Translations under genes and position numbers: made by a program
The notes under the pieces: generated by a model
What the model saw: the letters and a program-made list of their open reading frames with translations, nothing else
What the model was told of the DNA's origin: nothing
Database searches by the model: none
Assembly: GCA_030680235.1 (NCBI GenBank)
Contig: JAUXWQ010000036.1
Coordinates: 1-64,000, forward strand
Length of the DNA: 64,000 nucleotides
Direction of reading: 5' to 3'
DNA from: Coxiellaceae bacterium
Lineage (GTDB): Bacteria; Pseudomonadota; Gammaproteobacteria; Coxiellales; Coxiellaceae
In this document: in pieces, positions 11,223 through 33,397 of the stretch
Numbering within the stretch: the first letter of the stretch is position 1
How the letters are laid out: every line of letters begins with the position of its first letter

Positions 11223-11546
11223 ATGGCAATAACGAAAACAAGCAGTTTATTTTGTGGCACCCGCAAAAATTCTATCAGCGATCAATATGCCATGGATTGT
11301 CAGCCTTGCATTAAACCAATTGCATGGTTTTCTCAAATGACACGCGATGAAAACCTCAGTGTGGATGCGGTCAATGATGCGTTAAACAAGATGGAAGATT
11401 TTTTAGATCAGAAAGAATATGAAAAAGAGGAACTTGTTGCAGAATTGCAACTTGCCCACGCGTTTCAAGATGTGCTTGAAGAAAGACGAGTTGAATTAAT
11501 TGTTTCAGCGAGATTTAGAAATGAAAAAGGATTTATAAAGAATTAA
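11223..11546 (+). CDS. Hypothetical protein, first gene of the RiPP transcript
   Basis: 107 aa, not recognised. Strong ribosome site (AGAGGAG, about ten bases before ATG). The N-terminal third has three Cys (FCGT, MDCQPC) and the rest is a highly charged helical region (NKMEDFLDQKEYEKEELVAELQ...) likely forming a coiled coil. It is the first gene after the promoter and precedes the precursor by 88 bases, so a regulatory, immunity or chaperone-like role is possible. Some chance it is itself a modified substrate, but its length and composition argue against this. Confidence 0.6.
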   Translation: MAITKTSSLFCGTRKNSISDQYAMDCQPCIKPIAWFSQMTRDENLSVDAVNDALNKMEDFLDQKEYEKEELVAELQLAHAFQDVLEERRVELIVSARFRNEKGFIKN

Positions 11547-11634: not shown

Positions 11635-11712
11635 ATGCAATTTGATTTAACTATTGTTGAAGAAAGTAAAGCAGTATGTGAAGTACTGTGTAACAGCACT
11701 GGCTGCCCATAA
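11635..11712 (+). CDS. RiPP precursor peptide (25 aa), candidate MNIO substrate
   Basis: ATG 11635 follows AAGGAG (11622-11627) by seven bases. The product has a leader-like N-terminal half (MQFDLTIVEESKA) and a Cys-rich end, VCEVLCNSTGCP, with Cys at 15, 19 and 24. The start could also be TTG 11602 (after AAAGGAG 11588-11594), which adds 11 residues in frame. Short size, a C-terminal Cys core, a terminator-like hairpin right after the stop and a downstream partner protein plus MNIO enzyme together match the layout of methanobactin and other MNIO RiPP operons. The LCNSTGC stretch resembles the Cys-(small)-Ser-Thr-Cys cores of some methanobactins. The mature structure is unknown. Confidence 0.8.
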   Translation: MQFDLTIVEESKAVCEVLCNSTGCP

Positions 11713-11720
11713 GCAGTAAA

Positions 11721-11750
11721 AGAGGGTCATTTTTATGGCCCTCTTTATTT
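11721..11750 (+). terminator. Terminator/attenuator after precursor gene
   Basis: AGAGGGTCAT and ATGGCCCTCT pair into a 10-bp stem (one G-U) with a TTTT loop, followed by a T-rich TTATTT. It lies nine bases after the precursor stop and 33 bases before the next gene. Partial read-through here would give far more precursor than enzyme mRNA, as is common in RiPP operons. Confidence 0.8.
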
Positions 11751-11782
11751 AACAAATAAGATTTTATTGAGAAGAATTTAAT

Positions 11783-12676
11783 ATGGAAATTAACAATCAA
11801 AAATCAGCATCTATCCAAACTATTATGGCAATGTTGATCACCAATAAACGTTATGTATTGAAGGCGCTTGAAAATCCCAAAAAATTTATTAATCAGTATC
11901 AAGTTTCGGAAAAAACATCTGATGAATTTATTACGTTTATCAATAATTACGGATCAAAATTTATCAGCTCGGCATTACTGTTAAACAAAAAAAGGTTTGA
12001 TAGCGTTATTTCAGCGTTAACAGTTATCAATAAATTATTTTCTATCAGCCAACTTGAAATGATATGGGAAAGATATTTAACTACCATTGAAATAGATGAA
12101 GAAGTTCCAAAAAATCCGCTTTTGGAGTCAATACGATTTTGTCAGTATGTTAATGATTTTGAAAAAATAGACGAAATACAAAGAAACCTTATTGAATATG
12201 AAACAATAAGAAACCAAGTAATTATTGATCATAGCTTGCATAACGTAGGATACAGTCAACTATCAGCGGAATTTAATACAGCCATTCCAGAAGAAGCCAA
12301 AAAAATAAAAGGCTTTATTCATCCTTGCGCTCAAATAAAAGAGTTTAGCTGTAATATATCTGAATTGATCCAGGCGCTAGCCAATGATTCTAGTAAAGAG
12401 GACTTGAAAAGAGTATACAAAGGATCAAATGAAAAAATGCTTTTTTGCAAAAATTGGATTAAAGGCGGTATATTATCCGTAAAAATATCCGAAGTTATTT
12501 TAAATGCAATTGCTATTTTACATTCTTCCAAAACATTGCCTGACTTCATAACGCTGCTATCCGAAAAATTAAGTATCAATTCAATTGACGCAAATACATT
12601 AATAAAAATGCTCATTCAATCTGGAATTATGATTGTTATTCCCGTTAACAACTTAAGTGAGAAAAAATATGTTTAG
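11783..12676 (+). CDS. MNIO partner protein (MbnC-like / RiPP recognition)
   Basis: 297 aa. MNIO enzymes work with a dedicated partner that binds the precursor leader. This protein has the right position (between precursor and MNIO gene, overlapping the latter by 8 bases) and a compatible layout: an N-terminal helical region like the DUF2063/MbnC N-terminus (LENPKKFINQYQVSE... then ALLLNKKRFDSVISAL), a middle segment (KGFIHPCAQIKEFSCNISELIQAL) resembling the beta-strand plus helix of that family, and a C-terminal helical, winged-helix-like end. It is longer than methanobactin MbnC (about 190 aa). Assignment is from context and pattern, not from a computed alignment. Confidence 0.65.
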   Translation: MEINNQKSASIQTIMAMLITNKRYVLKALENPKKFINQYQVSEKTSDEFITFINNYGSKFISSALLLNKKRFDSVISALTVINKLFSISQLEMIWERYLTTIEIDEEVPKNPLLESIRFCQYVNDFEKIDEIQRNLIEYETIRNQVIIDHSLHNVGYSQLSAEFNTAIPEEAKKIKGFIHPCAQIKEFSCNISELIQALANDSSKEDLKRVYKGSNEKMLFCKNWIKGGILSVKISEVILNAIAILHSSKTLPDFITLLSEKLSINSIDANTLIKMLIQSGIMIVIPVNNLSEKKYV

Positions 12677-13511
12677 AAAGACTGACTGTTTTTATGGTGT
12701 TGGTGTTAACTATCGATCAGAAATTAGCAAGGATATATTAGAAAACATAGATAAAATTGATCTTATCGAGGTTTTCACTGAAAAATTTTTCATTAAAGAC
12801 GATGATAAAGTTTTAAATGAAATTACATCACGTGTTCCAACTATTTTACATGGTCTTGATATGTCGATTGGCTCTTCAGATATGCTGGATCAAGAATATT
12901 TATCAAATTTGAAAATCGCATTAAATTCGACAAATTTTGAGTGGTTTAGTGATCATATTTCTCTGACAAAACAAGACAATATTGAACTAGGGCATTTAAT
13001 GCCAGTTCAGTTCTCTGAAGAATCAGTTGATAACATCGTAAAAAAAGCGAGATACGTTGCTGAGTTAACAAAAAAACCATTCTTACTGGAAAATATCACA
13101 TATTATTATTCAATCCCCGGCAGTGCGCTAAACGAAGATGATTTTATAAAAGAAATCTTAGAAAAATCAGATTGTGGAATGTTATTGGATGTGAATAATC
13201 TTTATATCAATTCAGTGAATCATGGATATGATCCAAAAACATTTCTAAAAAATATACCCCTTGATCGCGTTGTTGAGATACACATGGCCGGTGGGTCATA
13301 CAAATACAATATGTTAATTGACACGCATGCAAATGCCATTGCAAAAGAAGTGTGGGACCTTTTTGATTATGTTGTTTCAATTACACCTGTAAATGGGGTG
13401 ATTATAGAACGAGACTCCAATTTACCCAGTTACAGTGACTTGCTTAGTGAAGTTGAAATTGCAAAAAATATTTTAAGAAAAAATAAAAAAATAACTAGAA
13501 AAGCTGCGTAA
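12669..13511 (+). CDS. DUF692 / multinuclear non-heme iron oxidase (MNIO)
   Basis: 280 aa from ATG 12669 (GTG 12657 is possible). A TIM-barrel enzyme; the family's ligand motifs are all present in order: GVGVNYR near the start, LHG (His61), FSDH (Asp95-His96), LLEN (Glu141), DVNNLYINSVNHG (Asp174 and the Asn pair), EIHMAGG (His205), IDTH (Asp218, His220) and ERDSNLP (Glu247). Known members (MbnB, TglH, ChrH and others) use two or three irons and O2 to rearrange Cys, or modify Asp or aromatic residues, in a precursor peptide, with a partner protein. Gene order and the Cys-rich precursor suggest Cys modification here, for example to an oxazolone-thioamide, but the chemistry must be tested. Confidence 0.92.
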   Translation: MFRKTDCFYGVGVNYRSEISKDILENIDKIDLIEVFTEKFFIKDDDKVLNEITSRVPTILHGLDMSIGSSDMLDQEYLSNLKIALNSTNFEWFSDHISLTKQDNIELGHLMPVQFSEESVDNIVKKARYVAELTKKPFLLENITYYYSIPGSALNEDDFIKEILEKSDCGMLLDVNNLYINSVNHGYDPKTFLKNIPLDRVVEIHMAGGSYKYNMLIDTHANAIAKEVWDLFDYVVSITPVNGVIIERDSNLPSYSDLLSEVEIAKNILRKNKKITRKAA

Positions 13512-13512
13512 T

Positions 13513-14091
13513 ATGAAATTTCTGATAGTTGCACATCCTGATGATGAAATACTTTGGTTTAATCCAAATTACTTCGATCATATATTCATTATTTTTAATG
13601 ATCGTAAGGATAAAGAATATATGGGCAGTGCGCGCCATGCTGTAATGAACGAACATCCATGCAAACAAAAAATAAGTCTAATGAATTTTGATGAGCCAGG
13701 CTATTGGAAAGATAAAACAAAAAAATTAGCATATAAAGAAGCAAAAACTGCAATATTAAATGCACTTAGAAAAATTTTATTAAGCCATAAAATAACCTGT
13801 ATTTTTACGCATAACCACGTTGGTGAGTATGGACACTCAGATCATGTTCTTGTAAATAAATGTGTTGAATTAGTTTTTAGAAAAAAACATCCGATCTGGG
13901 CTCCTGATATCAATCTAACGCAACATGAAAATAAAAGAATTACGAGCACCAAGTGTAGTCTAAAAACCAATTTTTTGGATTATCAATTGATCAAAGAACT
14001 GTATATTTCACATAAAGCGTGGACATGGAATCCAAATTATATACCAAATGAAACTCAAGAGTATTATTGCATGAATGAAGGTGTTTTATGA
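13513..14091 (+). CDS. PIG-L/LmbE-family deacetylase
   Basis: 192 aa. The zinc-site motifs are AHPDDE (7-12) and HNHVGEYGHSDH (100-111), diagnostic of the PIG-L family, which removes acetyl groups from GlcNAc-type groups (GlcNAc-PI, mycothiol and bacillithiol precursors, glycopeptide antibiotics). Starts one base after the MNIO stop and overlaps the following glycosyltransferase gene by four bases (ATGA), so the two are translated together. The likely task is deacetylation of an N-acetylhexosamine that the neighbour attaches to the peptide (inferred). Confidence 0.88.
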   Translation: MKFLIVAHPDDEILWFNPNYFDHIFIIFNDRKDKEYMGSARHAVMNEHPCKQKISLMNFDEPGYWKDKTKKLAYKEAKTAILNALRKILLSHKITCIFTHNHVGEYGHSDHVLVNKCVELVFRKKHPIWAPDINLTQHENKRITSTKCSLKTNFLDYQLIKELYISHKAWTWNPNYIPNETQEYYCMNEGVL

Positions 14092-14798
14092 TAAAAGAAC
14101 CAGTGATAGCATCTTTAGCGTCAATTCCAGAAAGAGAAAATTTTCTGCAGCAAACCATTGATTCAGTTATTGATCAAGTCGATATTCTAAATGTCTATTT
14201 AAATGAGTATAAAAAGATACCCCATTTTCTACTCAAAAAAAAGATTCGATATTTTTTAAGCAGTGAAAAAGGCGATTTTGGAGATGCAGGAAAATTTTTT
14301 CCGCTTCAATATCATAGCGGATTTTTATTCACACTCGATGATGATCTATATTACCCATCTGACTATGTCAGCACAATGATCAAAAAAGTAAATTTATATG
14401 AAAGATCTTCATTTATTTGTGTTCATGGTAACTTGCTGCCAAAAAATAAAATAAACTCTTATTACAAAGACAAGACTGGAATTCACTTTTCAAAATTAAC
14501 GTCAGCAGATCAAGAGGTTGATGTTCCTGGCACTGGTACACTTGCGTTTCATTCGTCTTTGTATAACGTAAAAATACAAGATTTTCCTATTCCAAATATG
14601 TCCGATATATGGCTATTTAAGATCGCACAAAAAAGAAACATCCCTGTTATTTCCATTGCGAGAAAAAATTTATGGATAAAATCACTTATTGTCGGAGACG
14701 ACAAGCATTCAATTTATTCAAAATTCTCAAATAATGATTCGTTGGTCACTCAAATTATCAATTCAACTGTGCGAGAAATTAATAATGAGCCAGTATAA
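14088..14798 (+). CDS. GT-A-fold glycosyltransferase
   Basis: 236 aa. Starts ASLASIPERE, the first strand and nucleotide-binding turn of a GT-A fold, followed by a second helix ending DSVIDQVD. The metal-binding motif is FTLDDDLYYPSDY (Asp84-86), and GDFGDAGKF lies just before it. No TM helix, so a cytoplasmic enzyme. Its overlap with the PIG-L deacetylase gene suggests a paired GlcNAc transfer/deacetylation on the RiPP, perhaps at the Asn, Ser or Thr of CNSTGC; donor and acceptor are not shown by sequence. Confidence 0.8.
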   Translation: MIKEPVIASLASIPERENFLQQTIDSVIDQVDILNVYLNEYKKIPHFLLKKKIRYFLSSEKGDFGDAGKFFPLQYHSGFLFTLDDDLYYPSDYVSTMIKKVNLYERSSFICVHGNLLPKNKINSYYKDKTGIHFSKLTSADQEVDVPGTGTLAFHSSLYNVKIQDFPIPNMSDIWLFKIAQKRNIPVISIARKNLWIKSLIVGDDKHSIYSKFSNNDSLVTQIINSTVREINNEPV

Positions 14799-15567
14799 TT
14801 TTGAAATTATAAGAGAAAGCATAAAATTACATGGTTATTACTTACTAGAAGATTTTTTATCTTATAGTGAGTTTGAAAAGTGTAGAAAAATGGCTGATGA
14901 ATTACAGGTTTTGCCAGAAAAAGCAAATGGCCCAATGAAGTATTTTGAAATTTCAGAAAAAAACAAAACCGAAATTCTAAATAGAGTTGAAAATTTTGCT
15001 GAATCAAAATTGGATTTATGTAGTCAATTATTTTATAAAAAAATACCAAGTTTTTTAAAAAATGTTTTTGGCAATAATTTTTTTCTACTCAAAGAAAAAA
15101 TAAATTTCAAAATGCCAGGCGGAGAGGGATTCAGAGCACATCAGGATGCGCCTGCATTCACACGATTCATAAAAAATGAAATGCTTACATTCATGATACC
15201 AGTACAATCGACAAATAGAGAAAACGGCTGTCTTCAAATTTCAGGCAATTATTTTAAAAATGAAATAATCACGCATGAGAATGGCACTATATCTAATGAT
15301 ATTTTTAACAAAATTATTTGGAAAGAAATTCCGATGAATGAGCGAGATATGCTTGTATTTAGCTCGATGTTATTACATCGATCCGAGTCAAATAAAAGCA
15401 ATAGTCCTCGAAGATCCTATTTTATAACTTATAACCAAGAAATCGATGGTGATTTAAGAAGGGAATATTTTAAATATAAACGTGAAAAGTTCCCACCTAG
15501 GATTGAGCGTGATAATAGCATAAACATTGAAGAATTGAACAAAAATATAGCAAAAAAGGTATTTTAA
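14785..15567 (+). CDS. PhyH-like Fe(II)/2-oxoglutarate oxygenase
   Basis: 260 aa from ATG 14785, which overlaps the end of the glycosyltransferase gene; the frame is open further left but that part is inside the neighbour. The iron site is His119-x-Asp121 (FRAHQDAPAF) and His198 (LLHRSE), with Arg210 for 2-oxoglutarate, the phytanoyl-CoA dioxygenase pattern. Such enzymes hydroxylate free or peptide-bound residues in several natural product pathways. Likely a tailoring enzyme of the RiPP. Confidence 0.85.
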   Translation: MSQYNFEIIRESIKLHGYYLLEDFLSYSEFEKCRKMADELQVLPEKANGPMKYFEISEKNKTEILNRVENFAESKLDLCSQLFYKKIPSFLKNVFGNNFFLLKEKINFKMPGGEGFRAHQDAPAFTRFIKNEMLTFMIPVQSTNRENGCLQISGNYFKNEIITHENGTISNDIFNKIIWKEIPMNERDMLVFSSMLLHRSESNKSNSPRRSYFITYNQEIDGDLRREYFKYKREKFPPRIERDNSINIEELNKNIAKKVF

Positions 15568-15570
15568 ATT

Positions 15571-17352
15571 ATGTTTTCTAAGAAAGATGAAATAACAAAT
15601 ATACCTAATACTATATTTAAATTTTTTGTTTATTTTATTGGGAAAAATAGTATTTCATTTTTAGTTTTGGCATTAACATCCTTGGTTTGGGCAATTAATC
15701 AAAATGTGTTCCCGTATTTTATTAAAATAGTTGTTAATACTGTTTATATGTCAAAGAACGATGTTTCGCTAATGGGTAACTTACATGGACCGCTCATGTT
15801 GTTATGCGGAGAGTTGTTATTTATGCTGTTATCAATGAGAATTCAGGGCCTTCTAATTACAAAAATTATGCCAAAATTCTCAGAAAGCATAAAAAATGAA
15901 ATCATTCATACTATATCGACATACCATATGAATTACTATATCAAAAACCAATCCGGAGTCATTACAAGCAAGCTTTTAAATCTAGCTTCCAGCTCAGAAA
16001 AAATAATACAAATATTGTTATTTAATTTTTTATCAACTATTTCTTCATTAATAATTTCTATAATGCTAATCAGTGCGGTATCAAAACCTGTCTCAGTAAT
16101 TATTCTGACATGGTCAGCTCTTCATATGGCCATATCCATTTTATTTATTAAACGCTTTCAAGAAAAACTAAATCAGACAGCAACATCGAGTTCGACTACT
16201 AGCAATATGGTCAATGATTTTGTTTCAAATATTATCAATATAATCACTTTTTCAAATGAAAAAAATGAGCTCACCCGATTACAAAGCACATTTAAAAATG
16301 AAAAAGTATGCTTTAAAAAAATATTAACAAGTCTGGAAATGATGAAATTGTCTTTGGCATTTCTAGGGACAATTTTTATTTTAGGAATTGTTTTTTTTAT
16401 GATTCATTTGATTGGAGAAAAACTGATTACAGCAGGTGATTTTGCAATGATTTTAATGCTTTCATTTACAATGCTTACTTTTATTTGGCAATTATCGTTT
16501 CATATTGGAAATTTTGTTAGGGAGCTTTCGGTTGTCAAGTCATCCATTCTTATTTTAAATAAAAATTTTCAGAATAATATTGAAACTTCAAAAAATGAAA
16601 TAAAAATTCATGGCGGAAAAATTGAATTTATAAATGTAAGTTGCTCATATAATGAAAATAAAGAGATTTTTAAAGATCTCAGTATGACAATTAACCCAGG
16701 TGAAAAAATAAGAATAAAGGGAGAGTCTGGTTGTGGTAAAACAACGCTTATAAATCTGTTAGTACGTCTTATCGATTTAAATAAAGGTGATATTTTAGTT
16801 GATGGACAGAGTATTTATAAAATATCCTCGGAGTCACTGCGGCTAAATATTGCATTTGTATCGCAAGAACCCATCCTTTTTCATAGAACAATATTTGAAA
16901 ATATACAATTTGGTAATATGATCTGCACTGATGATGAAGTTTATCAGGCTGCCAAAACCGCTTGTTGTCATGATTTTATTCTCGAGCTTTCTGATGGATA
17001 TAATTCAAGGGTTGGTGAAGGCAGCATAAAATTATCTGGTGGGCAGCGGCAACGGATACTAATTGCGCGAGCTGTGTTGAAGAATAGCCCAATTCTCATT
17101 TTAGACGAACCAACCTCATCTTTAGATGAGAATACTGAAAATGAAATATATAAAAATATATTTTCAAAAAACACAAAACAAACCATTATTCTTATTTCAC
17201 ACAATGAACGCGCTAATAATTACATGGATAAAATATGGGTTATTGAAAGTGGTTCACATAAAAAAATAATTGATAGTGTAACGGAAATGAAAATCCCTGT
17301 TTACATACAACAACCAATAAATGAAGCTAATATGGGGGTTGTTAATGCCTAA
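15571..17352 (+). CDS. ABC exporter, fused permease-ATPase (RiPP cluster)
   Basis: 593 aa with six TM helices in the first ~320 residues and a nucleotide-binding domain: Walker A GESGCGKTT, signature LSGGQRQR, Walker B ILILDEPTSSLD, switch His in ILISHN. It lies three bases after the oxygenase gene and its 3' end overlaps the aminotransferase gene, so it is inside the biosynthetic operon and the best candidate for export of the mature peptide. No peptidase C39 domain is fused, so leader removal must come from elsewhere. Likely paralogue of the exporter at 1493-3274. Confidence 0.9.
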   Translation: MFSKKDEITNIPNTIFKFFVYFIGKNSISFLVLALTSLVWAINQNVFPYFIKIVVNTVYMSKNDVSLMGNLHGPLMLLCGELLFMLLSMRIQGLLITKIMPKFSESIKNEIIHTISTYHMNYYIKNQSGVITSKLLNLASSSEKIIQILLFNFLSTISSLIISIMLISAVSKPVSVIILTWSALHMAISILFIKRFQEKLNQTATSSSTTSNMVNDFVSNIINIITFSNEKNELTRLQSTFKNEKVCFKKILTSLEMMKLSLAFLGTIFILGIVFFMIHLIGEKLITAGDFAMILMLSFTMLTFIWQLSFHIGNFVRELSVVKSSILILNKNFQNNIETSKNEIKIHGGKIEFINVSCSYNENKEIFKDLSMTINPGEKIRIKGESGCGKTTLINLLVRLIDLNKGDILVDGQSIYKISSESLRLNIAFVSQEPILFHRTIFENIQFGNMICTDDEVYQAAKTACCHDFILELSDGYNSRVGEGSIKLSGGQRQRILIARAVLKNSPILILDEPTSSLDENTENEIYKNIFSKNTKQTIILISHNERANNYMDKIWVIESGSHKKIIDSVTEMKIPVYIQQPINEANMGVVNA

Positions 17353-18421
17353 AATGCTTGAACACTTCAGAAGTGAGATTTTGGATATTCCAAATCATTA
17401 TAAAAAAATTGATCCAAATTCTGTTAAGCTAAATTTAATGGAATCTCCGTTTACTATTCCAGATGAATTACAAAATATAATAAAAAAGAAATTATGTTTT
17501 TCAGACATTAATCGATATCCTGACCCGGAATGTACGTCATTAACAAAAAAAATTATATCTTCCTTTTCCATTAAGGACGGAGAAATATTGCTTGGAAACG
17601 GTCTTATGGAATTAATTCAACTAATTTGTTGGGCATTTTCAAAGCCGGGTGAGTACGTAATGATTCCATCACCATCGTTCTTTATTTTTAGACGGTATAT
17701 TCGTCAAGCCCACATGCAAATTATCGAGGCACCCTTAACGGAAAATTTTAATCTTGATATTAAAAAATGTTTAGAAATTATAAAAAATTACAATCCACGC
17801 ATTATTTTTATAGATTATCCAAACAACCCAACAGGAAATTTGTTTAATATAAATGATATATTACTAATACTTTCCACATCTGATGGAATTGTCGTTGTTG
17901 ATGAAGCCTATTTTCCGCACTCTAATTCGACTCTAATGTCATATTTAAATAAATATGAAAATCTTATTATATTGCGTAGTTTTTCAAAAATGGGTTTTGC
18001 AGCACTCAGACTTGGTTTCATTGCCGCAAATAAAGAAATTATACAATATATTAAAAAAGCACAGTATCCTTTTGCAATCAACTCATACATACAAATTATT
18101 GCTGAAGTTGTTTTAGAGCATATGGCAACAATAAATGAAAAAATCCATGAGATAGCTAATTTAAAGAAAAAAATGCATTTTTCACTGTCAAAGATAAGGG
18201 AAATAAGTCAGTTCCCTAGCTTTGCAAATTTTATTCTTTTTAAGACTGATAGAAATTCAGATCACATTAATGAACATTTAATAAAAAACAATATATTAAT
18301 TAATTCGCTTAATGGGACTAACCCACTATTAAAAAATTGTTTGCGTGTTGCAATTGGGTCTGAAAAAGATAATGAAATATTTTTAGAAGGATTGTTTGAC
18401 GCCTTAGATTGTACAGAGTAA
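17345..18421 (+). CDS. PLP-dependent class I/II aminotransferase (HisC-like)
   Basis: 358 aa from ATG 17345, with GGGGG upstream, overlapping the exporter's stop. Fold-type I features: YPNNPTGN for the cofactor/substrate loop, DEAYFP (Asp186 pairs with the pyridine N) and SFSKMGFAALRLGF with the Schiff-base Lys215. HisC/CobC-like in length and motifs. In methanobactin operons an aminotransferase (MbnN) turns the N-terminal amine of the trimmed peptide into a carbonyl; the same role is plausible here. It could also make an amino-sugar or an unusual amino acid. Confidence 0.87.
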   Translation: MPKMLEHFRSEILDIPNHYKKIDPNSVKLNLMESPFTIPDELQNIIKKKLCFSDINRYPDPECTSLTKKIISSFSIKDGEILLGNGLMELIQLICWAFSKPGEYVMIPSPSFFIFRRYIRQAHMQIIEAPLTENFNLDIKKCLEIIKNYNPRIIFIDYPNNPTGNLFNINDILLILSTSDGIVVVDEAYFPHSNSTLMSYLNKYENLIILRSFSKMGFAALRLGFIAANKEIIQYIKKAQYPFAINSYIQIIAEVVLEHMATINEKIHEIANLKKKMHFSLSKIREISQFPSFANFILFKTDRNSDHINEHLIKNNILINSLNGTNPLLKNCLRVAIGSEKDNEIFLEGLFDALDCTE

Positions 18422-18450
18422 CAAATTAATATTTAAATATGAGGAATCTG

Positions 18451-19296
18451 ATGTATTACTTATTTGGGTATAAAAAATTAATAGAACTTGTTAAAAAAGC
18501 CTCGGCAAGCAAGTTACCTGTCGATGATATCAAACTGCTGGGTGATGATTATAAAAACTACCTGAACAGTGTTTCAGTATTTGAAAATGATATTAACTGG
18601 GATGAAATTCGTTTGATTGATTATCCGTCGCTACATGTGTATGCCAACAATCATGCTGAAAAAATTAAAGTGCACATAAAGGAAAATAGTGAAATTCTTA
18701 AAAATAGATTGCGAGATGGCTTTTTTCAAGAAGCATTAACTAAACTTGAAGAAAGCAATTTTGAAATTTTTAATCTTGCTAAATTGGTCATCAAAATGGT
18801 GTTGATTAACAATTTGAATTCTTATACCAACGGCACAACAGCTGACACCATTGGACTTGCTTCAATGGATTTTAAAGATCATTTCAATCAACAAGATTTT
18901 ATTGAATTAGTTGTTCATCAAATGACGCATATGTATTTATTTATGGATGATAAAGTTTTTAACCACTGTGATGAAGAAAAAAAGGAAATAATGATTGAAA
19001 CATATGATATTAAATTTATATTGGGTGGAACGCAGTTCCCACTTTATTTGGCTTACCACAGCTATATTGTTGGTGTAGAAGTTTTGTGCTTTCGTGAAGA
19101 AACATATGGAATAAATGGTGATGGGAATTACCACGGAAAAACATCGAGAATATTTAAAATATGTGAATTATTTCAAAAAGCACTTATTTTAAATACGCAT
19201 CATTTTTCAAAACGAGGTTTGGGCATTTTTGAAAAATCAGTCAATCTTTTTGAATCGAAAAAGAAAAAATATCCAATTTTTGCTAACGAATTATAG
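18451..19296 (+). CDS. HQxxH-motif protein, HEXXH-like peptide modification/peptidase relative
   Basis: 281 aa. ATG 18451 is chosen because GAGG sits six bases upstream; ATG 18439 overlaps that site. The centre reads TIGLASMDFK then ELVVHQMTHMYLF (His156-Gln-x-x-His160), the place of a zinc-binding HEXXH helix but with Gln instead of the catalytic Glu. Downstream a His-rich helix (YHSYIVGVEVLCFREE) could give the third ligand. This resembles the HEXXH-type proteins found in RiPP clusters. With Gln it may bind metal without peptidase activity, or do a different reaction. Soluble, no signal peptide. Confidence 0.6.
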   Translation: MYYLFGYKKLIELVKKASASKLPVDDIKLLGDDYKNYLNSVSVFENDINWDEIRLIDYPSLHVYANNHAEKIKVHIKENSEILKNRLRDGFFQEALTKLEESNFEIFNLAKLVIKMVLINNLNSYTNGTTADTIGLASMDFKDHFNQQDFIELVVHQMTHMYLFMDDKVFNHCDEEKKEIMIETYDIKFILGGTQFPLYLAYHSYIVGVEVLCFREETYGINGDGNYHGKTSRIFKICELFQKALILNTHHFSKRGLGIFEKSVNLFESKKKKYPIFANEL

Positions 19297-19309
19297 GAAT
19301 AGTGTAGCG

Positions 19310-20134
19310 ATGAGAGCCATAGACAGTGATTACTTTGAGAAAATCAGACATTTTGTTAATCAGGATAGCTACAGTAACGCCGATAAAAAAACCGATTATA
19401 CAAATTTGATTGATTGCAATGATTATTCAAATGAAAAAATTAAGCATGATATTTTCGAACACCTCAAAAATTTTGGGCATTGTGTATTACAACTTAATAA
19501 AGAAATTGAATATACAATAGAAGACATCACTGCTTTTTTATCAAGTCAATTTGGCGAACCAATGAACGATAGAAATAGAAAAAAACTTGCTTATACTCAG
19601 ATTAAATCAGAACGTAATCCTGAAGCCTATGTAACGTCAAATTGGACGCAGCCAATGCATACTGATGAGGGTCATACGAGCATCTATCCAGAAATCATAG
19701 GAATGTACTGTTATAAACCGGCAAAATTAGGTGGTGTAAGTATACTGGTTGAGTTTGAGCGACTTTATTTAGCACTTGTAGAAAAATTTGGCGAACAGAT
19801 TGATTGTCTTTTTGATAAAAAATGCCTGGATGTTTTTAGTGCTTATGGTAGAGAATTCAAGCCATTGCTTTTTAGAAAAGACGAAAATAAAATTGGTATT
19901 AGTTATTCTCCAATTTTAGGTAAAATGTATTGTACGGATACTGTATTTGAAATGTATGACTTTATCACAAAATATCTTCATAATCCTGGCAATCAGCTTC
20001 GATTTAAGCTTGCTGAAAAGCAAATATTGATTTTAGATAATTGTCGGGTTTTGCATGCAAGAACTGCATTTTCACCACAATGTGATAGATTATTGTACCG
20101 GTATTGGTTTTCTCGTAATGACTTACATGGTTAG
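19310..20134 (+). CDS. TauD/SyrP-like Fe(II)/2-oxoglutarate oxygenase
   Basis: 274 aa from ATG 19310 (AGGA 12 bases upstream); the frame is open further left but inside the previous gene. The metal triad is His117-x-Asp119 (PMHTDEGH) and His249 (CRVLHAR), with basic residues near 260-264 for 2-oxoglutarate. Close in layout to the oxygenase at 3732-4691. A second oxygenase in the operon implies at least two hydroxylation or desaturation steps on the RiPP or on a building block. Confidence 0.85.
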   Translation: MRAIDSDYFEKIRHFVNQDSYSNADKKTDYTNLIDCNDYSNEKIKHDIFEHLKNFGHCVLQLNKEIEYTIEDITAFLSSQFGEPMNDRNRKKLAYTQIKSERNPEAYVTSNWTQPMHTDEGHTSIYPEIIGMYCYKPAKLGGVSILVEFERLYLALVEKFGEQIDCLFDKKCLDVFSAYGREFKPLLFRKDENKIGISYSPILGKMYCTDTVFEMYDFITKYLHNPGNQLRFKLAEKQILILDNCRVLHARTAFSPQCDRLLYRYWFSRNDLHG

Positions 20135-20140
20135 TGAAAA

Positions 20141-21358
20141 ATGACATTTGAACGCATTCAATTGATAGAAAGACAAAATTACCTGAATACTATTTCAGTA
20201 TTATTCATGCCGCGCCTACACCATTATATGTTGATAATGAAAGCCGCCTTGATTCGTTACAAGCAGGGCATTGTCATCTTGTTTGCCTTGCTAGCACCAA
20301 CATTGCTGGGAATTAATTATTTTTTGACTGCACCAATATTATCCTTTATTTCAAACAACGGCCTTTCAAGCATCTTTTTAGATGGAAGTGTTGTTTATGC
20401 GATATATATATCTTGGATTTTACTGCAGAAACCTGCAGTAAAACCTGTTGATGCGAATACTTATATTTCTACGTTGCCTATATCTAATTTTACTAATAGA
20501 TTTATTGATATTTTAATGTTGCTTGTTGCAAATAATGTTTTTCTGATTCCTTTTATATTAGTGATACCGCATTTAAATTTCTCCGACTGGTCTATTTTAA
20601 AACTGCTATTTTTGGTGATCAGTGTACTGTCATTTCAGGTTAATTTTGTAAAGTTTAGTATCGTTAATATATTTTTTCTGGTTATTGCAAATTCTTTATA
20701 TTTTTATTCTTGCGTTATTCAGTATGTGTCGCTTGAATTTTCCTTGATTATTTTTTGTAATGCGATAGCTTTACAAACGTTATTGATACCGTTACCAAAT
20801 TATAATTTTTTTAATCTATTGCATAGGTCGAAAAGGAATTCTGCATTTAAGAATATTAATTTACGTGCTGCACTTCTGTGTCGAACAAAAATATTGGCAA
20901 CCCTTTTTAGATTGGCGCTTTCAATGCTAGTCATTTTGACCGGTATATTGCTTGTGACAAAAACAAAACTATCGAGCAATGTTTTTGTTGTTTCAATTGT
21001 CATACTTGGCATATGTTCCTTTGTATTAAGCGGAATTCTCACCTTTTTTTACAATGAAAGAAAATTGTATGCTGGTTATTTGAATAGCTACCCACGCTCC
21101 AATCTGTGGTGGATATCTGATGATATTTTTTTTGTTTCCATTGTTCAGCTACTCATTAGCTTAATTTATTTTTTTGGGATTTTGTTTTATTTTAATATGG
21201 GTTTTTATGAAATCTCACTTATTCTTTTTTATCAAGTAATATTGTTGAGCATGCTTTATTATTTTAGAACACAATTTCAGATTTTTGGAATGTTTGTGAG
21301 CCTATTAATAACGTGTTTATGGGTTTTAGTTCCAACAATAATAAAAGGTATTTTATGA
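20141..21358 (+). CDS. ABC-2-type permease
   Basis: 405 aa, predominantly hydrophobic with about ten to twelve TM helices and an N-terminal cytoplasmic stretch. The loop after the third helix has a DANTYISTLPIS segment of the kind seen in bacterial ABC-2 permeases linked to exporters of peptides. Starts seven bases after the oxygenase and its stop overlaps the ATPase start (ATGA), so it pairs with that ATPase as a second transporter, possibly for self-protection. Confidence 0.75.
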   Translation: MTFERIQLIERQNYLNTISVLFMPRLHHYMLIMKAALIRYKQGIVILFALLAPTLLGINYFLTAPILSFISNNGLSSIFLDGSVVYAIYISWILLQKPAVKPVDANTYISTLPISNFTNRFIDILMLLVANNVFLIPFILVIPHLNFSDWSILKLLFLVISVLSFQVNFVKFSIVNIFFLVIANSLYFYSCVIQYVSLEFSLIIFCNAIALQTLLIPLPNYNFFNLLHRSKRNSAFKNINLRAALLCRTKILATLFRLALSMLVILTGILLVTKTKLSSNVFVVSIVILGICSFVLSGILTFFYNERKLYAGYLNSYPRSNLWWISDDIFFVSIVQLLISLIYFFGILFYFNMGFYEISLILFYQVILLSMLYYFRTQFQIFGMFVSLLITCLWVLVPTIIKGIL

Positions 21359-22002
21359 CAGAACAATGCGATTTGAGAAACACGCTTTCAATTGAAAATA
21401 TATCGAAATCATATTCATCGAATAAGATTGTTTCGAATTTTTCTTGCCAATTTTTAACTGGTTGCCACGCTTTAATTGGAGAAAATGGTTCTGGAAAATC
21501 TACATTGTTAAAAATGATATGCGGTGCGGAAATATATGATGGCGGAAACATCTTATTTGATGGCATATCGCTAAAAGAAAGCAAAATAGATTATAAAAAA
21601 AATATTGGTTATGCCCCTGATAAATTAATGATATACCCATTTCTTACGGGGAGCGAATTTATCAGAATGATTTTTTCCATAAAAGGTATTACCGATAAGG
21701 GTGTTTTTTCTGACATTCTTGATGGATTTAATATTCGTAAATATCTTCAGTATCGCCTTGATGAAATGTCATTAGGAAATCAAAAAAAATTTATGTTGGC
21801 AGCTGCTTTTATTGGTGATCCAGGCCTCCTTGTTCTTGATGAGCCAACAAATGAAATTGATATTGAATCAAAAAACTATCTTATTAGCTGTCTTTTGGAA
21901 ATGAAAAAAGATAAAGTTATTATTTTTTCAACACACGATGATAATTTTATTTCAGCTTTAGATGCAAAAAAATATAATCTATCGGATATGTGGCGAAACT
22001 AG
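21355..22002 (+). CDS. ABC transporter ATP-binding protein
   Basis: 215 aa from ATG 21355. Walker A GENGSGKST, Walker B LLVLDEPTNEID and switch His in FSTHDD are intact; the signature is degenerate (MSLGNQKK instead of LSGGQ), common in ABC-2 ATPases. Partner of the preceding permease. It is the last + strand gene of the cluster; its stop overlaps the convergent repressor gene by four bases. Confidence 0.87.
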   Translation: MTEQCDLRNTLSIENISKSYSSNKIVSNFSCQFLTGCHALIGENGSGKSTLLKMICGAEIYDGGNILFDGISLKESKIDYKKNIGYAPDKLMIYPFLTGSEFIRMIFSIKGITDKGVFSDILDGFNIRKYLQYRLDEMSLGNQKKFMLAAAFIGDPGLLVLDEPTNEIDIESKNYLISCLLEMKKDKVIIFSTHDDNFISALDAKKYNLSDMWRN

Positions 22003-22499
22003 CTATTTAGTGTTGCCTCATACGTTTTTATAAAAGTAGAAACCATGTTTTTTTGAAGACTTTTTTCATTGCTTGTTTTGATAATTTGAGTATATAGATT
22101 TGTAGCAATATCGGCACATTTTTTTTCGTCCAGCTTATATTTTAATTTGAGCTTAATAACTTCTTCTAGAATTGTTGTTAATAGCTCAGAATTAAGCATG
22201 AGATCAGTTTGATATTTGCTAATTTCATGTGCAAAAGCATCTTCAATTTTTTTATTTTTTGATCCTTTATGATTGGCCGTTGGATGGCCTTCACCTGTCA
22301 CGAGCCATTTTTCTGTTACCCCAAAAGATTTACTATATAACTGCAGAAAGCTTGTTGTTGGAGTGCGGCGGCCTCGCACATGTTGAGCAAAGGTTAAATA
22401 GGGGATGCTATATTTTTCACAAAATTCCTTTGCTGTGGCAAAACCAGCGGCTTTCATTGCAGCTTTAATTCGGGCACCCAGCGCATAATCTTTCTTCAT
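21999..22499 (-). CDS. CI-like HTH transcriptional regulator
   Basis: 166 aa. Residues ~5-70 form a phage CI-type HTH (ARIKAAMKAAGFATAKEFCEKY then the recognition helix YLTFAQHVRGRR, followed by KSFGVTEKWLVTGEG), the layout of the bacteriophage CI repressor HTH family. The C-terminal part is helical and lacks an S24 peptidase. It is divergent from the Q-like gene, and the shared region holds a perfect palindrome over the promoter, so it is likely the repressor that keeps the transfer operon silent. Confidence 0.8.
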   Translation of the reverse strand: MKKDYALGARIKAAMKAAGFATAKEFCEKYSIPYLTFAQHVRGRRTPTTSFLQLYSKSFGVTEKWLVTGEGHPTANHKGSKNKKIEDAFAHEISKYQTDLMLNSELLTTILEEVIKLKLKYKLDEKKCADIATNLYTQIIKTSNEKSLQKNMVSTFIKTYEATLNS

Positions 22500-22524: not shown

Positions 22525-22587
22525 GTACATTGACTGTAAACAGATTATATGACATAATTATGTCAATTGCAATGTACTTTTATGTCA
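22525..22587 (+). promoter_or_regulatory. Divergent promoter with overlapping palindromic operator
   Basis: TTGACT (22530-22535) and CATAAT (22553-22558), spacer 17, read towards the Q-like gene. The -10 lies within the perfect palindrome TGACATAATTATGTCA (22550-22565). A further half-site, TATGTCA, is at 22581-22587, and GTACATTG (22525-22532) matches CAATGTAC (22570-22577) as a second, wider inverted repeat. The layout fits tight repression by the adjacent CI-like regulator. Confidence 0.7.
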
Positions 22588-22601
22588 TAGTGGAGGCAGT
22601 G

Positions 22602-23000
22602 ATGACCTATCTTATTGATTTATTAAGCACTAAAAAGCGTCTTATGCAATGGGGTAACTGGTGTTACCAAATTACGACGATGGGATTAGGATATTCGCAC
22701 AAATCGTTAATAGCAAAGCTCCAGGAAGAAGGGGGTATCGTTATTTCAGCGACGGCCAAGGTATTGGTACCTAGCAATGAGCAGGCAGAAGAGATGGATA
22801 CTTTGATTGAACGGTTGGCTGAACAAAAACCACAGGGTGCTGGAAAACCAGAATGGGCGAAAACTATTCGCATTCATTACACGATGCAACATAAAGATAT
22901 TGCAGAGCGTATTCAATCTGCTTCTTTACCAAGAGCAACATATTATCGCTATCTGCAGGATGCTCAAGAGTGGCTGTCGCAATATCTGAGTATCCATTAA
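22602..23000 (+). CDS. Phage Q/ArpU-like putative antitermination protein
   Basis: 132 aa from ATG 22602 (GGAGG 22592-22596). The layout resembles antitermination protein Q of P21-type phages and ArpU regulators: an N-terminal RLMQWGNW motif (family: LxxWGxW), then a Leu/Asp-rich helix (EEMDTLIERL), then a sigma-70-region-4-like HTH (IRIHYTMQHKDIAERI followed by PRATYYRYLQDAQEWL). Known Q proteins load at a promoter and let polymerase pass a downstream terminator. Here a leader with a strong terminator does follow, before the T4SS operon. Function is inferred from pattern and position. Confidence 0.6.
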   Translation: MTYLIDLLSTKKRLMQWGNWCYQITTMGLGYSHKSLIAKLQEEGGIVISATAKVLVPSNEQAEEMDTLIERLAEQKPQGAGKPEWAKTIRIHYTMQHKDIAERIQSASLPRATYYRYLQDAQEWLSQYLSIH

Positions 23001-23338
23001 CCCACGTTTGTAAAACTCCATGATAAAAAACAGGAGCACATAATTAACCTTATGTGCTTTTTTTGAAAATTATTCTAAGAGCTAAACGTTTTGTTTATTA
23101 AAAATAAGAAAACTTAAAAAGATTTCAGGTTTTGTAAAACAACTTCAAAAAAAATCAAAAGTAGTCTCACTTTGAAAAAATATTTCCAACAGAAAAATTA
23201 AAACTACTTAAAACCCCTTAAAACAGCTTAAAAAAACTTCAAACAAAAAAGAATTAAAAATACTTTTTGTAAAATAATGCTTGCATATTTATTTATTTTT
23301 TTGTAACATACCTAAGTAAATTCGAAAACGTTTACACA
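23001..23338 (+). promoter_or_regulatory. A-rich leader with repeated CTTnAAA motifs
   Basis: About 340 bases without a gene. Between 23113 and 23240 the motif CTT(A/C/TG)AAA recurs about seven times, on a poly-A background. It may be intrinsically curved DNA, a loading region for the Q-like protein, or mere composition. A hairpin-like TTTGTAAAACTCC...GGAGCACATAA segment lies just after the Q-like stop. Confidence 0.4.
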
Positions 23339-23375
23339 AAGCCCCGCTAGATTCTCATCCACCGGGGCTTTTTTA
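23339..23375 (+). terminator. Intrinsic terminator in the leader of the transfer operon
   Basis: AAGCCCCG (23339-23346) pairs with CGGGGCTT (23363-23370), 16-base loop, followed by TTTTTT. It stands 70 bases before the first T4SS gene and downstream of the Q-like gene, so it separates the regulatory and transfer genes unless polymerase is made to read through. Confidence 0.88.
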
Positions 23376-23445
23376 TTGCCTATAAAAATCTAATTCATTT
23401 TTCTTTTTTCTAATTCATAAAAATTAAATTAACCGAGGATTGCTT

Positions 23446-23931
23446 ATGAAAAAGCATGCGCAACTCAAAACTTATGTTTTGAGTGGTTTGCTGTGCCTGT
23501 CAGTTTTTGCGACAGCCACATCATGTTTTGCTAATAACGTTATTGTTGGACGTTATTTATCAGTAGCTGCAACACCTGCCGCTGATCAGAAAAATTTATT
23601 GCAACAGCAAATACAAATTAAATTCCCACAAAATATTTTAACAATTAAGCAAGCTGTAAAATTTATTTTGCAATTTAGTGGTTATCGCTTATGTAACGAG
23701 AATGAACTTGATAAACCTGCAAAGAAAATGTTGAGTCAGCCATTACCTGAAGTTGATAGAACTTTTGGGCCGATGACATTAAAGCAAGGATTACAAACTT
23801 TGGCGGGCAATATGTTTTATCTATTGCTTGATCCCATCGATCGCTTGGTTGGTTTTGAAATCAAACCTGATTATCGACATTTATATGAAAACACAGCAAT
23901 TAACAAATCAGCAGAACAAGAAGCGGATTAA
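23446..23931 (+). CDS. PilL-like conjugative transfer protein (TIGR03748-type)
   Basis: 161 aa from ATG 23446 with GAGGA six bases upstream. Sec signal peptide (LSGLLCLSVFATATSCFA), so periplasmic or envelope. GRYLSVAATP then FPQNILTIKQAVKFILQFSGYRL is the family's conserved core, an AMIN/secretin-like small domain. In GI-type ICEs this is the first gene of the transfer operon, and it is so here. Confidence 0.8.
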   Translation: MKKHAQLKTYVLSGLLCLSVFATATSCFANNVIVGRYLSVAATPAADQKNLLQQQIQIKFPQNILTIKQAVKFILQFSGYRLCNENELDKPAKKMLSQPLPEVDRTFGPMTLKQGLQTLAGNMFYLLLDPIDRLVGFEIKPDYRHLYENTAINKSAEQEAD

Positions 23932-23934
23932 ATC

Positions 23935-24255
23935 ATGACAGAAATGACAGAAATAAATATTAATGCAAAATTAATACCAAAATTTGCCCCAGGTTTAAAT
24001 AATTTAGAAGAGTATGTTGGCTACGATATGATGCTCTATATTCTACGTTATCTTTATAATTTGGTACTTAAATCAAGAAAATTTGGATATAGCAAGCAGC
24101 ATTTGCAGCGTCAGATTCAAAAATTTGAAGAACAATCAAAACTGCCGGGATTTTTATCTGCTCTACCAATAGATGAATTGTTAGAACAGTTAGAAGATGC
24201 GCAATTTTTTTATCCTATACGTAAGCGTGAAGTCAGTTTTCCAAAATTTCATTAA
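23935..24255 (+). CDS. Hypothetical conjugation-region protein
   Basis: 106 aa, starts three bases after the PilL-like stop. Not recognised. Soluble, basic, with a helical middle (MMLYILRYLYNLVLKSRK) and Tyr/Phe-rich end. Operon position implies a role in transfer. Confidence 0.6.
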   Translation: MTEMTEININAKLIPKFAPGLNNLEEYVGYDMMLYILRYLYNLVLKSRKFGYSKQHLQRQIQKFEEQSKLPGFLSALPIDELLEQLEDAQFFYPIRKREVSFPKFH

Positions 24256-24290
24256 TCAATACACATTTTTTTAAACAGGGTACATTGACT

Positions 24291-25073
24291 ATGAACAACT
24301 TAATTAATCGGGATACTTTATTAAACATAAAGTATCAGGCAGTAGAAAAAATACGAAATTATTATACATTTATTAAACTGCAAGCTCAAAATTTGAATAA
24401 ACGTCAGCGTGTTGTATTATTTTCATGCGTTGGATTAATTATTTTACTTGTTTTAGTGTTTTCATTTATTTATTCATCTCATCATGTTAAATCAAAAACC
24501 AATTATCCGGTGCATTTTGAAACACTGCAGAAAACAATACAAAAACCAAAAATCGCAACGCAGCCTGTATCTTCCGTTGTTAATAGTGTTGAAAAAAACA
24601 ATGATGATAAATTGCAAGTAGGACTAAACAAGCTAGAAACATCTTCGAATAAGCAGATGCAAGCATTGCAGATAGAATTGCAAATTATGCAATCCAGACT
24701 GACATCACTTGCCTCGCAAGATGATATACAAAAATTACAACAAACAGTTTCAAAACCAAATCAAATGCTACTAGGTAAGATGAATAGTCTACAAAATTCT
24801 GTTCAAAAAGTTGTTGCGCAAACCGCGAAAAAAACCTGGGTTGATCCAGTTACAGTACAAAAATATTTTCATCTGGTAGCTGTTCAGGGTTTTAGTGATG
24901 GCATGCGAACTATCATCGATGTAGATGGAAATCAAACAGCATTAAGTAAGAATGAAATTTGTCCTGTATGTCGTGGATGGGTATTGCAACACATGAATTT
25001 TTCAAATCAAAGTGCTGTGTTTAGTAAACAAAGCGCTCAACAAACTTTATATGTGAAATTACAAACCAACTAA
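24291..25073 (+). CDS. Bitopic membrane protein of the transfer region (coiled coil)
   Basis: 260 aa from ATG 24291. One TM helix at ~38-60 (VVLFSCVGLIILLVLVFSFIY), followed by a Gln/Lys-rich coiled-coil stalk and a periplasmic C-terminal domain starting WVDPVTVQKYFHLVAVQGF, with paired Cys in ICPVCRGWVL. Overall like a DotF/VirB10-type inner membrane component, but the family is not certain. Ends immediately before the lipoprotein gene. Confidence 0.65.
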   Translation: MNNLINRDTLLNIKYQAVEKIRNYYTFIKLQAQNLNKRQRVVLFSCVGLIILLVLVFSFIYSSHHVKSKTNYPVHFETLQKTIQKPKIATQPVSSVVNSVEKNNDDKLQVGLNKLETSSNKQMQALQIELQIMQSRLTSLASQDDIQKLQQTVSKPNQMLLGKMNSLQNSVQKVVAQTAKKTWVDPVTVQKYFHLVAVQGFSDGMRTIIDVDGNQTALSKNEICPVCRGWVLQHMNFSNQSAVFSKQSAQQTLYVKLQTN

Positions 25074-25084
25074 TGAGGTGTCCT

Positions 25085-25387
25085 ATGCGATTTTTTCCAT
25101 TTAGTAGAGGACATATCAAGCTAGCTGGTTTGATTTGTCTTGTGTTAGTGACAAGTGCTTTTTTATCAAGCTGTGCAGGCATGATGAATCAGTTAGGGTA
25201 TGTTCCTATTGAAAAACAGCAAGCAAAAGCGTGCTCTGCTGCTCCTGTATTAATAACTAATTTAACGCTCAATCCTCATCATAGAAAATATCAATTACCA
25301 AATGGCAAAATTTGCCCTGGAGTCAATTATTATGAGCAAGATAAATTGCAATCTGAAAATATGGACATGGGCGATTATATTTTATAA
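25085..25387 (+). CDS. Small lipoprotein of the transfer region
   Basis: 100 aa from ATG 25085 (GAGGTG upstream). Signal peptide with lipobox LSSC near residue 30, then a mature region with two more Cys (KACSAAP, KICPGV). Outer-membrane or inner-membrane lipoprotein by sorting signal Ala+2, so probably outer membrane. Its 3' end overlaps the frame of the next gene. Confidence 0.7.
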   Translation: MRFFPFSRGHIKLAGLICLVLVTSAFLSSCAGMMNQLGYVPIEKQQAKACSAAPVLITNLTLNPHHRKYQLPNGKICPGVNYYEQDKLQSENMDMGDYIL

Positions 25388-25397
25388 GCCATTTATT

Positions 25398-26156
25398 ATG
25401 CCTATTTTTTTATTTTTGTTTTTAAGTTTTACGGTGATACCCGCTTTTTCTGACACGATACAACCGATTAATCCACAACAAACAGAAAATAAAATTACAG
25501 AGACAGTTACAAATCAAGAAGAGGGAATAAAAGATCAGGCAGCGATGTGGGGTTTGAGTGCTGATAATTTTCAACACTATCTTTGGTTGATGAAAAACAC
25601 ACCCAGCGGTCATTGGTATAAAAATCTAGATCCGCCAGAAGTATTAGCCCTTAATACAAAGAATTCTAATGAAATGATGCAGTATGCAAAAATTCAAGCA
25701 CAAAACATGCATAGTCGTGTAACACGCGAGCTGACATTCGATGAGATGTATTCGCAAGCGTATAAACAATTATACCCAAATGAAAAAGCCATTACGTCAC
25801 CAAATCAATCAACTCAAGATGCTGCGCTGAAGTCAGGTGATCGAGTGTGGTTATTTGTGGGTGTTGGTACACCATTAGGTAGTTTTGCTTATCAGCACTT
25901 AAACAAAATGGTGGAAGCAACGTCTGATACTGTATTGGATATTTATTTTATTGGTAAGCATGTTACACAAACAAGCATTCAACGTTGGGCTGCGAGTATG
26001 GCTATTGCACCCAATCTTGTGAACAAGAAGATTACGCTAAATTTTGGTAATGATCGTTTTGACTCTCTCACAAAAGGGAAGAAAGTTAATCTGCCATTTG
26101 TTGGTATTGTGCATGACAATCATTTTCAGCCGATTACGCTTTCATCGGTCTTATAA
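25398..26156 (+). CDS. TIGR03759-type integrating conjugative element protein
   Basis: 252 aa from ATG 25398, which begins a signal peptide (MPIFLFLFLSFTVIPAFS); the open frame extends left within the lipoprotein gene, so the start is not certain. WGLSADNFQHYLWLMKNTPSG, then LDPPEVLAL and AKIQAQNMHSRVTRELTFDE, is the family pattern (LxxxxWxRYxxLMxGPxG...LDPxxxLGxxA...). Periplasmic. In GI-type ICEs it precedes the cell-wall enzyme gene, as here. Confidence 0.85.
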   Translation: MPIFLFLFLSFTVIPAFSDTIQPINPQQTENKITETVTNQEEGIKDQAAMWGLSADNFQHYLWLMKNTPSGHWYKNLDPPEVLALNTKNSNEMMQYAKIQAQNMHSRVTRELTFDEMYSQAYKQLYPNEKAITSPNQSTQDAALKSGDRVWLFVGVGTPLGSFAYQHLNKMVEATSDTVLDIYFIGKHVTQTSIQRWAASMAIAPNLVNKKITLNFGNDRFDSLTKGKKVNLPFVGIVHDNHFQPITLSSVL

Positions 26157-26182
26157 CGAGAATAATAATGCGAGGTCTTATT

Positions 26183-26884: not shown

Positions 26885-26927
26885 TATTTATCAATTTTAT
26901 TTTTAATAAAAAAGGTTTACGCGTTGC

Positions 26928-27566: not shown

Positions 27567-27573
27567 AATTGTT

Positions 27574-29595: not shown

Positions 29596-29633
29596 ATTAA
29601 ATCAAGAAAGCGTAATTTTGTGAGCAATAAAAA

Positions 29634-30329: not shown

Positions 30330-30358
30330 ATTTAAAAAACAACATGGGGTGAATGTTT

Positions 30359-30957: not shown

Positions 30958-31063
30958 ATTACTTTTACTTAAATTTCTAATTTTAATTTTCTTTCTGTAA
31001 TTAAAGCGCTTTTAGCGTCAGCTTTACGCATTTAACTTATCCCAATAGTGAGGATTTTTTATC

Positions 31064-31450: not shown

Positions 31451-31471
31451 TGAATCCGCGAGGAAATGAAC

Positions 31472-32460: not shown

Positions 32461-32523
32461 TCTAAGTCAAAAAAAACACCCCTTTTATTTTTTCTAAATC
32501 ATGAAGTTTTGTGAGGTCAAGTT

Positions 32524-33372: not shown

Positions 33373-33397
33373 ATGAATCAAAAATTGGGATTTAAAT

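Follow-up and report, generated by a model that had tools for sequence, protein, structure and literature searches.

The first 64,000 nucleotides of contig JAUXWQ010000036.1 of a Coxiellaceae bacterium (the window) carry, at positions 11635-22002, an operon that probably directs the synthesis of a new class of small ribosomally synthesized and post-translationally modified peptide (RiPP). The peptide would be made by a multinuclear non-heme iron-dependent oxidative enzyme (MNIO), and the operon borne as exchangeable cargo on an integrative and conjugative element (ICE), a reading to which we give a probability of roughly 0.62. The product most likely belongs to a glycosylated MNIO RiPP class that is new but built on known enzyme families. 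The original prediction, made from the letters of the window alone, was of an undescribed, heavily tailored MNIO RiPP cluster on a conjugative element; this is supported, and no description of a peptide family combining these enzymes was found in the literature searched. The genome to which the window belongs, as contig C19, measures 2.03 Mb and falls in a 36-genome order of small-genome gammaproteobacteria. The cluster holds about 12 genes, found where they had been predicted, all on the plus strand and overlapping or 1-17 bp apart past the leader region.

The gene set was found again in six related loci: L040 from Legionellales bacterium UBA4722, L053 from genome G426, and L070-L073, one from each of four genomes in what is probably a Legionella-type family. 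When one genome per species was scanned, a single close relative appeared, L040, which holds the whole cluster including the precursor and whose MNIO is 63% identical to that of the window. L053, which is a reduced version, was found by a search of UBA4722's order, and L070-L073 in a 143-genome order that is probably the Legionella order, judging from its Dot/Icm genes. Within the window locus the operon reads as follows, with counts referring to the seven loci.

11635..11712, plus strand: precursor peptide of 25 amino acids, MQFDLTIVEESKAVCEVLCNSTGCP, with the conserved end CNSxGCP; 7/7 loci have a homologous open reading frame (ORF) in this position, with coding-type conservation.
11719..11746, plus strand: hairpin behind the precursor, a probable attenuator or processing stem (12 bp stem, 4 nt loop).
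11783..12676, plus strand: MNIO partner of predicted TglI/NGO1945 fold (PME-type 2), with an N-terminal helical domain and a C-terminal domain like a RiPP recognition element (RRE); homologues in 7/7 loci.
12669..13511, plus strand: MNIO (DUF692) enzyme (PF05114, E 3.9e-83); ligand-type residues and base D249 invariant; 7/7 loci.
13513..14091, plus strand: PIG-L-type N-acetylglucosamine (GlcNAc) de-N-acetylase (PF02585, E 2.3e-7); AHPDDE and HxxH invariant in 6/6 copies.
14088..14798, plus strand: GlcNAc-transferase-type glycosyltransferase, a KfiA/heparosan synthase homologue; DDD invariant in 6/6.
14785..15567, plus strand: PhyH-type 2-oxoglutarate/Fe(II) oxygenase (PF05721, E 2.2e-16); H119-x-D121...H198 invariant in 6/6.
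15571..17352, plus strand: MsbA-like ABC exporter with PF00664 and PF00005 only and no peptidase domain; 6/7 loci.
17345..18421 (start alternatives 17321 and 17354), plus strand: HisC-like class I/II aminotransferase; this locus only.
18439..19296, plus strand: HQxxH protein that may be a divergent peptide hydroxylase of the aKG-HExxH type; 4/5 members match TIGR04267 weakly.
19310..20134, plus strand: TauD-type 2-oxoglutarate/Fe(II) oxygenase (PF02668, E 1.1e-19); HxD...H invariant in 7/7.
20141..21358, plus strand: ABC-2-type membrane protein, a probable immunity/export permease; homologues in L040 and L053.
21355..22002, plus strand: ABC transporter ATPase pairing with the permease at 20141-21358; 7/7 loci.

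Six features are common to all seven loci: the precursor, the hairpin, the partner, the MNIO, the TauD oxygenase and the ABC ATPase. PhyH, the glycosyltransferase and PIG-L are kept in six, with their catalytic residues intact and in variable gene order. Pfam assigns the MNIO, PIG-L, PhyH, ABC exporter, aminotransferase and TauD proteins, while the same search of the cluster proteins gave no clear family for the partner, glycosyltransferase, HQxxH protein or permease. Among 369 evenly drawn gammaproteobacterial genomes, the HQxxH protein occurs only in the window's genome and the glycosyltransferase only there and in one unrelated context (G069, L045), so the set is rare. Searches of plasmids by tblastn returned no match to the partner and only ordinary MNIOs, below 60% identity, to the MNIO; two viral-contig scans returned no match.

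The precursor ORF, preceded by ATAAGGAGTG, has counterparts of 25-36 amino acids that share the C-terminal end Cys-Asn-(Arg or Ser-Val/Thr)-(Gly/Ala)-Cys-(Pro/Ser) in all seven loci: MEFSIEVVEETEATVEVACNSVGCP in L040, MDLDIEIIEESTDSVEVLCNSVGCP in L070, MDLTIEIIEESTTSVEVLCNSVACP in L071, MDLNIEIIEESANSVEVLCNSVGCP in L072, MDLDIEIIEESTDSVEVLCNSVACP in L073 and, in L053, a 36-residue peptide ending in MLCNRACS. The predicted Cys-rich, 25-residue precursor is thus real, its C-terminal block being conserved, but only the last two of its three Cys are; the first is not. The Legionella-type copies differ from one another at up to 14 codons by synonymous changes only, against 3 amino-acid changes. The ORF is not a chance one: all six other loci have the peptide in the corresponding position, with a hairpin behind it, and synonymous changes prevail among the close copies. 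The hairpin lies within about 12 nt of the precursor in every locus and is strong but divergent in sequence, which fits a separately dosed precursor mRNA.

The MNIO scores 279 bits against PF05114 (cut-off 25), and H61, H96, E141, D174, N177, H205, D218, H220, E247 and D249 are invariant in all seven copies, which retain every ligand-type residue of MbnB, TglH and 3bww. D249 corresponds to the Asp proposed as catalytic base in FonB (PMC13097082). The closest named models are HvfB (234.6 bits, cut-off 360) and BufB (234.3 bits, cut-off 310); MbnB (TIGR04159) reaches 44.9 bits against a cut-off of 325, which leaves the methanobactin analogy of the original prediction weak. A tree that also included 23 MNIOs from related orders sets the seven apart from all ordinary ones by a split with support 83, with the long MbnB branch on their side. 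As a group of their own with ligands and putative base intact, they remain compatible with the peptide-modifying role first proposed. A second MNIO of the window's genome (L001, G000 C6 64680-65462) falls among the ordinary ones. In another locus (L023 1949-4896), an MNIO that groups with TglH precedes a 444 aa ORF with a partner-like N-terminal part and a TauD-matching C-terminal part; two small Gly-rich, Cys-containing ORFs also lie there.

The partner had been called MbnC-like, an identity we reject. Its AlphaFold model (pLDDT 73.7) matched TglI (8hci_A, E 4.3e-5; 8hi7_A, E 6.4e-5) and NGO1945 (3dee, E 5.8e-4) in Foldseek, all below E 0.001, and MbnC only at E 2.2. No Pfam match to DUF2063 was found, and the fold places the partner in 'PME-type 2' (PMC12452194).

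The relationship to HvfB and BufB, makers of 5-thiooxazole (PMC13097082), together with two conserved Cys in the core, raises the alternative of a captophorin-like copper-binding peptide, in which the MNIO would form Cys 5-thiooxazoles for copper buffering or scavenging and the sugar genes would aid only solubility or export. We consider this unlikely: the MNIO stays below both equivalog cut-offs and separates from ordinary MNIOs in the tree, the precursors show no Sec signal peptide, DUF2282, EGKCG or Cys-Lys repeats, and the cluster has neither DoxX nor a DUF2063 partner.

PIG-L proteins are a family of GlcNAc de-N-acetylases, and the zinc motif is intact here; a PIG-L profile search of the PDB found no relative. 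The predicted GT-A glycosyltransferase stands and can be narrowed to a homologue of GlcNAc transferases, since a profile of the six sequences matches heparosan synthase B (8vh7, E 4.8e-47, over its residues 301-527) and KfiA (5z8b, E 7e-24), the latter an alpha1-4 GlcNAc transferase (PMC12834895). The window's glycosyltransferase alone also matches these structures. Because KfiA transfers GlcNAc and PIG-L removes its acetyl group, the two form a chemically coherent pair, and the sequences suggest, as the simplest reading, GlcNAc transfer followed by deacetylation to glucosamine. The pair lies between the MNIO and PhyH in two loci and at the 3' end in four; linkage has therefore outlived rearrangement, and from this linkage, kept in six loci under two gene orders, we infer that the peptide is the acceptor. 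In L053 (4886-7320), the place of the sugar genes and the ABC exporter is taken by a GNAT acetyltransferase, an MFS-like transporter and a 254 aa protein that has no match in Pfam.

As HxD...H is retained in every copy of PhyH and TauD, hydroxylation is likelier than halogenation for both. The HQxxH protein is harder to place. Its residues H160, Q161, H164, H207, E214 and H232 are invariant in 5/5 copies and the motif is HQxxH, not HExxH, in each; against TIGR04267 the best E is 0.022 and the score 14.1 bits against a cut-off of 40. An hhalign comparison with aKG-HExxH was collinear but weak (P 0.033), aligning H160 and H164 with the two His of HExxH and H207 with the His that follows. Its AlphaFold model (pLDDT 50.6) yielded no fold match of use, and nothing in the PDB matched it by sequence. 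L071 and L073 lack the gene. A concatenated tree pairs L070 with L073 and L071 with L072 (support 100 each), and in both pairs the member lacking HQxxH (L073, L071) has Ala at position 23 where its sister has Gly. This pairing of HQxxH loss with Gly23-to-Ala change in two non-sister loci is a lead. Action near Gly23 is plausible since the HExxH enzyme of another MNIO cluster oxidises the backbone at an Ala position in a C-terminal motif (PMC12636437). Elsewhere, in a reference sequence (L078 148-2015), a true aKG-HExxH protein overlaps a downstream ORF resembling a small ATP-grasp-type protein.

The aminotransferase (class I/II family, E 3e-40; TIGR01141, 280 bits against a cut-off of 276.55; PDB 3euc, E 4e-59) had been listed as a feature of the cluster, yet it lies outside the conserved set. 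For pfl, acetylation following leader removal has been proposed (PMC12636437). Here, the six loci without the aminotransferase carry a GNAT acetyltransferase, the two genes being mutually exclusive in 7/7 loci. The N-terminus of methanobactin is transaminated, and because of this and of the acetylation proposed for pfl, the two enzymes may be alternative N-terminal capping enzymes.

Two ABC systems are present, as predicted. L071 and L073 carry a divergent permease at the position of the one at 20141-21358, and the best NCBIfam relatives of its ATPase, all below cut-off, include ATPases for bacteriocin export and for lantibiotic protection. As to the weapon or metallophore first suggested, no TonB-type receptor was seen in the cluster; together with the conserved ABC-2 pair, this mildly favours a secreted product against which the producer protects itself. 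That the product is no antibacterial but a host-directed metabolite, made by intracellular bacteria associated with protists, is quite improbable: UBA4722 is named Legionellales and several genomes, including that of the window, carry DotI/IcmL of the type IVB secretion system, but an ABC-2 pair is the usual arrangement for self-immunity against antibacterials.

The placement on an ICE was correct. TraD (TIGR03754, 851 bits), TraC (TIGR03744, 977 bits), PilL2 (TIGR03748) and TIGR03749/3752/3755/3759 all score above cut-off, and three features frame the cluster.

11223..11546, plus strand: ICE backbone gene bounding the cargo slot on the left; its DNA is 73% identical to the ICE of a sister species.
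21999..22499, minus strand: helix-turn-helix (HTH) gene at the right edge of the cargo slot, in a 70% identical ICE block starting at 22006.
22530..42343, plus strand: PFGI-1-class ICE transfer genes, with TraD, TraC, PilL2 and TIGR037xx models over cut-off.

The ICE recurs in a congener, G004 (TraD 83%), whose DNA aligns with the window at 11314-11539 and again from 22006 on, with other genes between, so the cluster is a cargo block of about 10.4 kb and, by this alignment, occupies an exchangeable slot of a PFGI-1-class ICE. No integrase or relaxase was identified in the ICE, for which no systematic search for integrase, relaxase or att sites was made; its left end runs off the contig, as C19 starts at base 1 of the window, and the window holds no tRNA. 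The related loci also lie near mobile genes: L070 adjoins a relaxase, ArdC and a ParA-like gene, L071 is 312 bp from a tyrosine integrase, L072 shares a fragment with an integrase and L073 adjoins ISL3 transposases. At L072 (146-1903) a HATPase protein with a partial Shedu (SduA_C) match, possibly a defence gene, adjoins the cluster. On the window's ICE, a second biosynthetic-looking block (95-9632) comprises an ABC exporter, ATP-grasp, MR/MLE enolase, NAD-epimerase, a Vut transporter and unassigned genes. Genes for Vut-type transporters are also found beside an HTH regulator and cargo in G004 (L084, C37) and beside the MNIO cluster in L053 (12872-15569), which suggests a common cargo-slot architecture.

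From these genes we infer the following chemistry, order and targets, leading to a secreted antagonistic or metal-binding peptide. The MNIO and its TglI-like partner would bind the acidic N-terminal leader, and the MNIO would oxidise Cys19, Cys24 or both, the two conserved Cys in the CNSxGCP end, most likely in a four-electron change, giving for example a thiooxazole or related heterocycle. TauD and PhyH would then hydroxylate core residues. The KfiA-like transferase would next attach GlcNAc to the Asn, the thiol or a native or installed hydroxyl of a side chain, PIG-L would strip the acetyl group to leave glucosamine, and HQxxH, where present, would work at or near Gly23. After the leader is cut off by a protease not seen in the cluster, the aminotransferase (in the window) or GNAT (in the remaining six loci) would cap the free N-terminus. 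The MsbA-like protein would export the product and the ABC-2 pair protect the producer. A fuller version of this proposal is tentative, and we would put it at somewhat less than an even chance: the first MNIO RiPP class in which a KfiA-type transferase puts alpha-linked GlcNAc on the core and deacetylation turns it into glucosamine, HQxxH being specific to Gly23 (lost together twice), N-terminal capping switching between transamination and acetylation, and the whole being spread by conjugative and other mobile elements through Legionella-like bacteria.

Several observations weigh against the glycosylated RiPP. No protease gene was recognised within the cluster. L053 is without the glycosyltransferase, PIG-L and PhyH, so glycosylation is not universal, and KfiA and heparosan synthase act on polysaccharides. 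The assignment of HQxxH to aKG-HExxH enzymes is weak; L053 (CNRACS) misfits the HQxxH-Gly rule, having HQxxH yet Ala; and the association with Gly23 gives a Fisher p of 0.14 over the 7 loci, computed by hand.

The TglI-like partner, the very short core at the extreme C-terminus and the many small-molecule-type enzymes would also suit a PEARL-like scaffold, with the leader as a reusable carrier from which a small Cys-derived, sugar-linked molecule, and no mature peptide, is released at the C-terminus. This is doubtful, as the cluster genes include no PEARL (lantibiotic dehydratase-like) ligase and no peptidase, the Cys are ribosomally encoded, Pro or Ser follows the last one, and the whole CNSxGCP block is conserved. 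Least probable are two unrelated neighbouring pathways, a minimal MNIO RiPP such as L053 retains and a sugar/export pathway on another acceptor in keeping with the otherwise polysaccharide-acting transferase family, since the overlapping genes form one operon whose linkage is kept in 6/7 loci, drawn from different orders, despite changes in gene order.

A single RiPP operon would offer the MNIO field a compact new class, with a 25-residue substrate and a seven-residue core. If this is true, a polysaccharide-type GlcNAc transferase and a mycothiol-style deacetylase would serve a ribosomal peptide, and modular ICE cargo slots would carry natural-product pathways in Legionella-like bacteria. The seven natural variants hint at pairings between enzyme and residue, HQxxH with Gly23 and GNAT or the aminotransferase with the N-terminus.

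Compared with known systems, the cluster resembles the captophorins, bufferins and oxazolin (HvfB, BufB, FonB; PMC13097082, PMC12452194) in pairing an MNIO with a helical-plus-RRE partner on Cys of a short precursor, HvfB and BufB being its nearest named models. We reject membership on the bit scores and precursor motifs given above: the precursor has no signal peptide and another core motif, the partner falls outside DUF2063, and sugar, 2-oxoglutarate oxygenase and transporter genes are added. The pearlins (TglHI, 3-thiaglutamate) share the partner fold, PME-type 2; the cluster has no PEARL ligase gene, encodes its Cys with Pro/Ser behind and has an MNIO on a separate branch, placing it outside that family. 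Methanobactin (MbnBC, MbnN) also involves an MNIO on Cys and, in some operons, an aminotransferase, but its MbnB model and MbnC fold both fail to match and the cluster has no uptake receptor, so membership is likewise rejected. The pfl/pos and nitrilobacillin (pes) clusters (PMC12636437, PMC13060819) combine an MNIO with an HExxH-type enzyme, pfl also having GNAT and transporters and no protease gene; here HQxxH is weakly related to aKG-HExxH, sugar genes are added, and neither a nitroreductase fusion nor an AS-like enzyme is present. Like the glycocins, the product would be a glycosylated RiPP, but with a KfiA-like transferase and deacetylase, MNIO chemistry and Gram-negative hosts. The vehicle, with its transfer gene set over cut-offs, is like other PFGI-1-class ICEs.

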